From Candidatus Peregrinibacteria bacterium (GTDB taxonomy: Bacteria; Patescibacteriota; Gracilibacteria; UBA1369; LOWO2-01-FULL-3): DNA of 56,630 nt. The stretch is from the NCBI GenBank assembly GCA_030688025.1, contig JAUYJL010000024.1, forward strand, positions 1 through 56,630, in the 5' to 3' direction. The first letter of the stretch is position 1; every line of letters starts with the position of its first letter. A model generated the notes under the pieces. That model did not search any database, was not told the DNA's origin, and worked only from the letters and a program-made list of their open reading frames with translations. Made by a program: the position numbers and the translations under genes. Positions 311 through 46,245 of this stretch are shown here, one piece after another.

Positions 311-544
311 GGGCGGAATGGCTATTTCAACATATTGCTTTCCTGAACAGATTCAGCGACGATATATGGCAAGGGAAATAGCAAAAATTCAGAAATAAAA
401 AACACCTCCGCCAAGAAAAAATCAAAAAAAGATTTCTGCAGTCAAAAAGTTTTCAATCAGCATTCTAAGTAAAAATATTCAAAGATTTTAATTTTTAAAA
501 AATCGTCAAGTCGAAGTTTTTGAAACCGCCGCGTTGCGAATCCA

Positions 545-594
545 CGATCCACAATTTCGCAAAATGACAATTTTACCGATCCACAATTTCGCAA
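545..594. repeat. 18-bp direct repeat, two copies
   Basis: CGATCCACAATTTCGCAA occurs at 545-562 and again at 577-594, spaced 32 bp start to start. Both copies are exact. No gene overlaps them and no function is suggested. Confidence 0.7.
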
Positions 595-23555: not shown

Positions 23556-23597
23556 AAAGAACAACACAAATAACACTTTTAGCGCAGACACCTATCG

Positions 23598-23725
23598 CTG
23601 GATCGCTGGATCACTGGATCGCTGGATCACTGGATCGCTGGATCACTGGATCACTGGATCGCTGGATCACTGGATCACTGGATCGCTGGATCGCTGGATC
23701 ACTGGATCACTGGATCGCTGGATCA
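23598..23725. repeat. Sixteen perfect 8-bp tandem repeats, unit CTGGATCR
   Basis: The unit CTGGATC followed by G or A is repeated 16 times without any other change. The order of the variable base is G A G A G A A G A A G G A A G A. Every unit contains a GATC. The array lies 42 bp after the HNH stop codon. Frames through it give an 8-residue periodic peptide only because 8 and 3 have a 24-bp common period; no real gene is indicated. Confidence 0.95.
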
Positions 23726-23762
23726 AAGAAAGAAAGTAAAAAACTCCTTTCCCATTATAAAT

Positions 23763-28963: not shown

Positions 28964-29632
28964 ATGGAAAATTTACACCAAAATGAATCGTTAAGCGCAG
29001 AAGCTAGAGCAAAAACACCAACAGCCCCAACACGAGGAATGAATCTTAAAACAAGATTAGCCGCACTTACCGCACTTGCAGGAATTTCTACATTTGCTCC
29101 AGAACCAGCACAAGCCTCAGAAGGAAAAACAACCATTGGACAAATAGGATTTAAAGCCGATCAACTTCATTTATCAGATACAACCTCACAAACTGGAGGA
29201 TATTTTTTAAGAGCAACAACTTCAGCACAAGCAACACATTTAGATCCATATACGACACAAGGAATTGCAGTCCATGGAGAACATTTTAGCGCAGGCCTAG
29301 GGGCAAAAATTCCATTAACAACAGAAGGCTTTACCAAAAGACTTGGAGGCAATTTAACGCTCGGATACCATGGCAAAAAAATAGGAGTCCACAGCGATTC
29401 AATTGTTGACGGAGAACAATGGAGAAGCGAAACTTCAGCACAATATCAATTCCCTCATCACATAGGCGTAGGCCCTGTAGCTCTAGCAGAAGGCCACTTT
29501 GGACACGAACCAAAAGTATTTAGCGGAATTTGCGCATCAGCAAAAATAAGCGAGCACATCTCAACTGAAATTTGCGCAGCAGCAACAAGAGCTTTAGACA
29601 GCCATGCTTCCATAAATTTAACGTATAGATAG
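28964..29632 (+). CDS. Uncharacterised exported beta-rich protein
   Basis: A 222-residue protein with a long, polar N-terminal extension (1-28), a hydrophobic segment (about 29-50) ending APEPAQASEG that looks like a signal peptide with an Ala-x-Ala cleavage site, then a beta-rich mature part. The mature region alternates polar and non-polar residues with frequent Gly, as in beta-barrel or autotransporter-like proteins (HIGVGPVALAEGHFG). No family is recognised. Element R2 copy 1 begins 6 bp after its stop. Confidence 0.6.
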   Translation: MENLHQNESLSAEARAKTPTAPTRGMNLKTRLAALTALAGISTFAPEPAQASEGKTTIGQIGFKADQLHLSDTTSQTGGYFLRATTSAQATHLDPYTTQGIAVHGEHFSAGLGAKIPLTTEGFTKRLGGNLTLGYHGKKIGVHSDSIVDGEQWRSETSAQYQFPHHIGVGPVALAEGHFGHEPKVFSGICASAKISEHISTEICAAATRALDSHASINLTYR

Positions 29633-29637
29633 TATTG

Positions 29638-29720
29638 ATTTTGCACAGGAAAGCTTCTGCAGAAACATTCCACAGCCTTTTTAGGCGAGGACGTTTCAAG
29701 GAAGTTTTCCTGTGCAAAAT
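29638..29720 (+). repeat. Structured intergenic element R2, copy 1
   Basis: A perfect 15-bp outer stem, ATTTTGCACAGGAAA (29638-29652) with TTTCCTGTGCAAAAT (29706-29720), continues through CTTC/GAAG. It encloses a core that is nearly identical to the second copy at 46152-46245: CTGCAGAAACA, then TCC, then CAG, a small hairpin, then GCGAGGACGTTTCAA. In the core, GAAAC (29662-29666) pairs with GTTTC (29693-29697) and TCC with GGA. The outer stems of the two copies have unrelated sequences, yet both are fully paired. Confidence 0.8.
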
Positions 29721-29734
29721 TTAAACTATTCCAT

Positions 29735-29978
29735 ACAAGAAACCCACACTTTTTAGAGAGTGAGTTCTGAAATCCCTTGTAAAAATTTGATGACTTGTCC
29801 GCAAACGGACCTATCTCAGACTTTTTGCTCCACCGTGCCGTTGTGGTCTTGGGCGCTGTTGCCCCCCTTAAACCAAGTGGGTGTCCTCGTCACCTCGCCG
29901 CAGCAAGGAAGAGATACCGGACTCCCGTAAACTATATGATAGAGAGAGTACATAAGACTCTGACGTACACTATCGAGC
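29735..29978 (-). ncRNA. Candidate structured noncoding RNA, about 245 nt, GC-rich
   Basis: A minus-strand promoter (29985-30013) leads into a locally GC-rich tract in an AT-rich genome, with no credible gene on either strand. Helices visible in the minus-strand RNA include CCUUGC/GCGAGG with a 4-nt loop, GGUG/CACC, GGGC/GCCC, CCAC/GUGG and a perfect GUCCG-UUUG-CGGAC hairpin. A long-range UAUCUC/GAGAUA helix closes part of this. A final hairpin near 29735-29781 (UACAAG/CUUGUA flanking a second stem) may mark the 3' end. It does not match tmRNA, RNase P RNA, SRP RNA or 6S RNA as I know them. Some resemblance to an RNase P segment (GGCACGGU...GGAGCA) is noted but the required CR-I and CR-V are missing. 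Confidence 0.5.
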
Positions 29979-29984
29979 AACTTC

Positions 29985-30013
29985 ATTGTATATAATGATC
30001 AAAACCTTGTAAA
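29985..30013 (-). promoter_or_regulatory. Promoter of the 29735-29978 candidate RNA
   Basis: On the minus strand, TTTACA (30008-30013), 17-bp spacer and TACAAT (29985-29990). The predicted start is near 29978. Confidence 0.6.
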
Positions 30014-30088
30014 GGGCTAGCACAAGCCATTTGCCAAAACCGGCCGCCCCTAAATAATGCGCCTTATCACCTATTCAACACACTATAT

Positions 30089-30724
30089 CTAGGTGCCCAA
30101 AAGTAAAATAGTGCTTACCCAATCATGCATAAAGCCCATAAAGTAGTGCAAAAACGAGAATTTGAAGATAGAGTCTATAATAAAAACATCAATCAAGATT
30201 ATGGCAACAAAATATTTAACTCCATTGTGCAAAAAATTCTGATATTGAGGATAAAAACGCTTCGGCACAAAAAGCCCCAAAATGCCTGAACCATCAAGAG
30301 GAGGGAACGGAAGAAGATTAAAAATTCCAAGATAAATGCTTACGTGAAAAGTCGTCCAAAGAAGCAAATTTACAAAATCCGGCAAATATACTCCAAGATA
30401 TTTCATCGGAATCGCAAGAACAAAAGCCAAAATAAAATTTGAAACAGGCCCCGCCAAAGAAGTAAGCGCACTTCCTTTCACAGGATTTTTAAAATTCATT
30501 GGATTCACAGGAACTGGCTTTCCCCAGCCAACTCTTTGCGTAATTAAAAAAAGTAAACTTCCAACAGGATCAAGATGCGCGATAGGATTTAAAGTAAGTC
30601 TTCCTCGAATTTTCGCAGTGGGATCGCCAAGATAATACGCAACCAAAGCATGCGAAGCTTCATGCACCGTCATCGCAATAAGAAGCGCAATAATAAAAAC
30701 CAAAAACTGGAATACGTAGTCCAT
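30089..30724 (-). CDS. Site-2-protease-like membrane metallopeptidase (M50 family)
   Basis: A 211-residue polytopic membrane protein. The zinc motif HEASH lies at residues 21-25 in the first membrane helix. The second motif NLLPFPPLDG has its metal-binding D144. There are five or so hydrophobic helices. It lacks the PDZ domain of RseP-type enzymes, so it belongs with the short YwhC/FtsH-independent M50 group. Such enzymes cut transmembrane substrates within the membrane. The region 30014-30088 downstream contains the promoter of a candidate RNA on the same strand. Confidence 0.88.
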   Translation of the reverse strand: MDYVFQFLVFIIALLIAMTVHEASHALVAYYLGDPTAKIRGRLTLNPIAHLDPVGSLLFLITQRVGWGKPVPVNPMNFKNPVKGSALTSLAGPVSNFILAFVLAIPMKYLGVYLPDFVNLLLWTTFHVSIYLGIFNLLPFPPLDGSGILGLFVPKRFYPQYQNFLHNGVKYFVAIILIDVFIIDSIFKFSFLHYFMGFMHDWVSTILLLGT

Positions 30725-31174: not shown

Positions 31175-31345
31175 AAGCGAGCGCACGGCGCGAGCGCGTA
31201 GCTAGCGAAGAATGTGGCTCTGCCACTTCTGAGCGAAGCGAAGCCTACAAAGCGAGCTTAAAAACAAGCGAGCGCACGGCGCGAGCGCGCAACAAGGCAA
31301 GCGTGTGGCTCCGCCACCGCGTAGCCGAAGTGAGCTTAAAAACAA
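31175..31345. repeat. Two GC-rich tandem repeats abutting tRNA-Ser
   Basis: Unit 1 (31175-31265, 91 bp) and unit 2 (31266-31345, 80 bp) share AAGCGAGCGCACGGCGCGAG, a hairpin GTGGCTC(Y)GCCAC and the tail GTGAGCTTAAAAACAA-like. The second unit ends exactly at the first base of the tRNA. Composition is far more GC-rich than the surroundings. A plus-strand open frame across it reads into the tRNA and is not a gene. Confidence 0.85.
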
Positions 31346-46151: not shown

Positions 46152-46245
46152 GAAAGAATGAGTGGAAAGGTTTCTGCAGAAACAATCCGCAGTCCCGCTA
46201 AGGCGGGCGAGGACGTTTCAAAGGAATCTTTCCACTCATTCTTTC
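46152..46245 (+). repeat. Structured intergenic element R2, copy 2
   Basis: The outer stem is 18 perfect pairs, GAAAGAATGAGTGGAAAG (46152-46169) with its complement at 46228-46245, followed by a G-U pair and TTTC/GGAA. The core matches copy 1 (29638-29720): CTGCAGAAACAATCCGCAG, an internal hairpin (CCCGC-TAAG-GCGGG-like), then GCGAGGACGTTTCAA. Pairings GAAAC/GTTTC and TCC/GGA are kept. The right arm of the outer stem overlaps the stop codon and last codons of topA (46236-46245). Confidence 0.8.

Follow-up and report, generated by a model that had tools for sequence, protein, structure and literature searches.

The locus and its neighbourhood

The window, that is, the whole stretch of 56,630 nucleotides analysed here, belongs to the genome of an uncultured bacterium of the Peribacteria (CPR). 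On its minus strand, a gene for an M50 peptidase is followed by a palindrome, a pair of promoter-like hexamers, a 159-nt core that matches 6S RNA and a terminator-like hairpin. The coordinates of these features, and of the helices predicted within the core, are collected in Table 1.

Table 1. Features of the predicted 6S RNA gene and its upstream neighbour (positions in the window; models R1 and R2 are described in the text)
Feature	Position	Strand	Evidence or remark
M50 peptidase gene (PF02163), directly upstream of 6S	30089..30724	-	Pfam
Palindrome GGCTTGTGCTAGCC, just upstream of the -35 box	30015..30028	-	conserved in the family
-35 box TTTACA	30008..30013	-	TTTAC retained in most family relatives
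-10 box TACAAT	29985..29990	-	predicted start ~29979
Predicted 6S RNA core (159 nt)	29823..29981	-	RF00013 42.9 bits; model R1 140 bits; model R2 124 bits
Closing stem, 5′ strand	29963..29978	-	helix 1, covarying
Helix P2, 5′ strand GUCUU; expected downstream part of the pRNA template	29954..29958	-	helix 2
Central bubble, 5′ side, with family-conserved ACUCUCUCUAUCA	29927..29953	-	19-sequence alignment
Apical arm, GGGA at its start, ACACCC at its end	29879..29926	-	helices 3-5
Central bubble, 3′ side	29851..29878	-	alignment of relatives
Helix P2, 3′ strand AAGAC	29846..29850	-	helix 2
Closing stem, 3′ strand, includes ACGGCAC	29827..29841	-	helix 1, covarying
Terminator-like hairpin with flanking A and U runs, includes GUCCG/CGGAC	29781..29825	-	-15 kcal/mol, z -3.6

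The core stands out by its composition, since its G+C content is 53% against 39% for the window, a value that only 1.4% of 159-nt windows reach; the G+C-rich patch described in the first-pass annotation is thus confirmed. Both hairpins reported there (CCUUGC/GCGAGG and GUCCG/CGGAC) are present on the minus strand, which is the only one to fold better than shuffled sequences (z -2.8). The plus strand folds at chance level (z -0.1), and a plus-strand RNA was rejected on these grounds. A long-range UAUCUC/GAGAUA helix, also proposed, found no support because its UAUCUC strand belongs to the apical stem, which covaries among relatives.

The promoter that had been claimed is there, its TTTACA and TACAAT boxes being separated by a spacer of 17 bases (30013-29985), though by itself it lies near chance level, with 2 promoter-like sites found against 1.3 expected in shuffles. 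Its predicted start coincides with the beginning of the 6S match. Furthermore, -10-like hexamers in 72 homologues peak at two distances from model position 1, 10 bases upstream (21 sequences) and 9 bases upstream (30 sequences), compared with 0 to 8 sequences at offsets farther upstream. The models contain no upstream DNA, so this peak is information from outside the model. At the other end, the core match and the terminator-like hairpin share three bases, the last of the former and the first of the latter, and a copy of the hairpin in the same genus also folds better than shuffles (z -3.2) and differs in a pair at the tip; a simple terminator scan did not include the hairpin among the sites it reported. 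The single RNA of 245 nt initially drawn here did not hold as one unit and resolves into the 159-nt core (29981-29823) and, after it, the terminator-like hairpin that carries GUCCG/CGGAC. Given a start at about 29979 and a hairpin end near 29781, the primary transcript would probably be about 200 nt long. As far as sequence evidence goes, the locus is an independent RNA gene with its own promoter at the 5′ end.

Of 30 loci tested, 25 have an M50 homologue next to them, for the most part directly upstream of 6S, and the distance from its stop codon to the 6S start is near-constant in most loci, at about 108 nt. At L009 and L013 the homologue is found on the other side of 6S. Between both genes, a palindrome of the form GGCTT-N4/5-AAGCC abuts the -35 box in most family members. 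It is possibly an operator, or the terminator of the M50 gene. A genome-wide regulon defined by this palindrome was rejected, as the genome holds one perfect copy of the palindrome with TTTAC, at the 6S locus.

Several repeats were observed in the same window. A long inverted repeat (29629-29729; 29-nt arms, 86% complementary) is probably what had been labelled element R2 (not to be confused with model R2 below). A partial second copy, with 76% identity, lies at 46164-46233, and similar pieces occur in three other genomes (G001, G003 and G013). Weak Rfam matches to miRNA families fell mostly on the long inverted repeat and were discarded as hairpin artefacts. A tandem array at 23594-23730 consists of about 16 copies of the 8-base unit ATCRCTGG, and two G+C-rich direct repeats of 77 bases (31175-31342), 74% alike, lie directly upstream of tRNA-Ser.

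Match to the 6S RNA family

At Rfam's own thresholds, the only matches in the window are two tRNAs. When the threshold was relaxed (571 bases scanned, E up to 10), RF00013, the Rfam 6S RNA model, was by far the top match, aligning to 29981-29823 on the minus strand over model positions 1-187, that is, over its full length, with 42.9 bits and an E value of 2.3e-7. The cut-off of this model (its gathering threshold) is 46.4 bits, 3.5 bits above the score of the locus, and routine annotation therefore overlooks it. The Rfam scan recommended in the first-pass annotation hence led to a known family, with a score below the cut-off. Moreover, two segments that align to the 6S consensus are retained, ACACCCAC where the apical arm ends and ACAACGGCAC within the closing stem; for this reason, together with the full-length match, the earlier claim that the locus lacks what is diagnostic of 6S RNA was mistaken. 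No second 6S locus was found in the source genome. We interpret 29981-29823 on the minus strand as a single-copy 6S RNA gene, with a probability of about 0.96: judged by its sequence, the locus is a real RNA gene and a member of a family that is already known.

Other classes of universal RNA were rejected for this locus. Neither the tmRNA model (RF00023) nor the RNase P RNA model (RF00010) matches it, and the genome encodes both RNAs elsewhere, with a full-length tmRNA match on contig C19 and RNase P RNA on contig C9, so that the initial view that the RNA was neither of these was right. SRP RNA was also rejected, as neither RF00169 nor RF01854 matches at the locus. Both of these models remained without a match anywhere in the genome (98% complete) at E values up to 1, which may reflect a divergent SRP RNA or an assembly gap.

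Similarity to a proven 6S RNA was also assessed in the reciprocal direction. Model R2 was built from CPR sequences only, in part from RF00013 hits, and hence is not independent of RF00013 as far as its training sequences are concerned. It was run on positions 3055500-3056800 of E. coli K-12 and on 28 other sources, including the window. Across these 29 sources it matched two places, the locus in the window and E. coli ssrS, and the ssrS match (484-667 within the E. coli stretch) nearly coincides with the annotated gene (484-666). With filters off, ssrS scored 26.9 bits with R2 and the next best place 6.5 bits. The similarity between the CPR family and E. coli 6S RNA is thus reciprocal.

The locus shares with 6S RNA (RF00013; E. 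coli ssrS) the closing stem, P2, the central bubble and the apical arm, and with ssrS in particular the conserved ACCCACCU-like and ACGGCA segments and a promoter of its own of the sigma-70 type. On the other hand, its core is 159 nt long against 183 nt annotated for ssrS, its neighbour is an M50 peptidase gene where E. coli has fau, and it departs from the RF00013 norm in scoring below the Rfam cut-off.

Conserved fold and alternative readings

Strong support for the fold comes from compensatory changes, analysed over 36 base pairs in three sets of sequences. In an alignment of 19 sequences built without structure, 91.5% of cells pair and 21 of the 36 pairs show changes on both sides, a result that none of 500 shuffles reached, while slid controls paired at 43-50%. 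When 60 relatives were fitted to model R1, which derives from 19 family sequences, 91% of cells paired (43-48% in slid controls) and 32 of the 36 pairs had two-sided changes, amounting to 466 such cells. A phylum-wide set of 21 sequences, which partly overlaps with the 60 relatives, gave similar covariation. Alignments fitted to a model lean toward its structure, and the 19-sequence alignment is therefore the cleanest of the three tests. Each of the three sets backs helix P2, the 19 sequences least strongly, and in the 60-relative alignment all six pairs of this helix change on both sides. The closing stem, the central bubble and the apical stem of 6S RNA are hence all recovered. The comparative folding that had been proposed at the outset shows the 6S fold to be conserved with heavy covariation, and strongly backs the original claim of a structured, promoter-driven RNA gene. 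At one locus (L017), the strand antisense to the 6S gene also gave a weak R1 score (387-545, plus strand; 14.4 bits), as expected for a rod-like RNA.

The minimum-energy fold of the single sequence lacks P2 and favours a 5′ hairpin, AGAGU/ACUCU, together with a longer 3′ hairpin; despite this, covariation favours P2. The 5′ hairpin lies in the bubble and excludes P2. Its pairing is conserved at 95% with zero two-sided changes, and for this reason it is unproven; any role for it would be a guess. In the 3′ bubble, a short CCU/AGG hairpin can form in most relatives, without covariation, and hairpins there average 5.4 pairs, only slightly longer than the 4.1 pairs of shuffled sequence. An extended release hairpin as in E. 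coli, running from the 3′ bubble to the 3′ strand of P2, was clear in 2 of 19 family members and at or near chance in most; it was rejected as a conserved element, and in this the CPR family differs from E. coli. With a possible short hairpin in the 3′ bubble and no conserved long release hairpin, it resembles 6S-1 RNA of B. subtilis as described in the literature (PMC8876501).

Among the alternatives, the one that fares best, and which we nevertheless hold to be very improbable, is an RNA related to 6S that, like Ms1 of Actinobacteria, would bind core polymerase in the absence of sigma. Ms1, which binds RNA polymerase, has a structure related to that of 6S RNA (PMC9130861), and the binding partner of the RNA studied here is only predicted. 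Against this stand the full-length match to the 6S model, the 6S segments ACCCAC and ACGGCA, which are retained, and the Rfam scan of the locus, which up to an E value of 10 returned neither Ms1 nor another bacterial RNA that binds RNA polymerase. Less probable still is that the resemblance to 6S RNA is fortuitous and the locus encodes a new, unrelated structured RNA of Peribacteria, a reading to which the score under the RF00013 cut-off lends itself. Against it, 12 relatives from the same aligned family exceed that cut-off, and the full-length RF00013 match, the covariation that confirms the 6S architecture and the recovery of ssrS by a model made of CPR sequences refute the novel, non-6S RNA envisaged in the first-pass annotation. 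Equally implausible is either a cis-acting UTR, belonging to M50 or to the convergent gene, or a short protein-coding gene: the constant position beside M50 and a TTG-started ORF of 66 amino acids on the plus strand (29795-29995) would fit it, but the locus comes after M50 and has a promoter and a terminator-like hairpin to itself, the plus strand folds at chance level and the compensatory changes track RNA pairing.

6S RNA in the CPR and its proposed function

The preferred reading, a 6S RNA gene, extends well beyond this genome. RF00013 matched 32 of the 60 relatives, whereas R1 matched 50 of them, at one locus each save for a marginal second match in one genome (G052). Within the order, R2 matched 63 of 79 genomes (E 0.001). 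Across the phylum it matched 121 of the 286 genomes sampled (about 42%), once in each, a count that is approximate in both directions, since matches with E above about 1e-5 call for caution, given a short calibration made without a shuffled-genome control, and strict filters also drop true matches. RF00013 found 25 of these 286 genomes at E 0.01 and passed its own cut-off in four (about 1%). As the Rfam cut-off leaves them out, nearly all of the CPR genes would have escaped annotation, and the difference between about 1% and about 42% of sampled genomes suggests that the Rfam model needs CPR sequences in its seed. No report of 6S RNA in CPR bacteria was found in the literature searched, which covers subscription journals incompletely, so that an earlier mention is possible.

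We consider it likely, with less assurance than for the locus itself, that 6S RNA is present in much of the CPR and near-universal in the family of the window, mostly unannotated, and that these minimal, probably host-dependent cells, which have few sigma factors, restrain their polymerase by means of an RNA, in one family under a conserved palindromic operator. Once recognised, the locus alone is ordinary biology; what matters more is a presence throughout the phylum that the standard model has missed.

Studies in E. coli and B. subtilis describe 6S RNA as a mimic of an open promoter that binds the holoenzyme with the primary sigma factor until pRNA synthesis unwinds P2 and frees the polymerase (PMC8876501, PMC11077062). 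The predicted structural parts that this mechanism needs are present at the locus. By analogy with these studied homologues, from which we infer both expression and polymerase binding, the RNA would accumulate as growth slows and, because its central bubble resembles an open promoter, would bind RNA polymerase in complex with the primary sigma factor and block transcription at promoters. When nucleotides return, polymerase would copy a short pRNA from the 5′ side of the bubble; this would open helix P2, whereupon the 6S RNA would refold and release the enzyme. A 6S RNA in the CPR offers a testable handle on how transcription is shut down and restarted in reduced, probably host-dependent bacteria. 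A search of the genome for sigma-70-family proteins with a detectable region 2 yielded no more than two, of which one is encoded by a long open frame and the other by a short one, and for this reason the RNA is more likely to act as a global polymerase brake than as a switch among many sigma factors.
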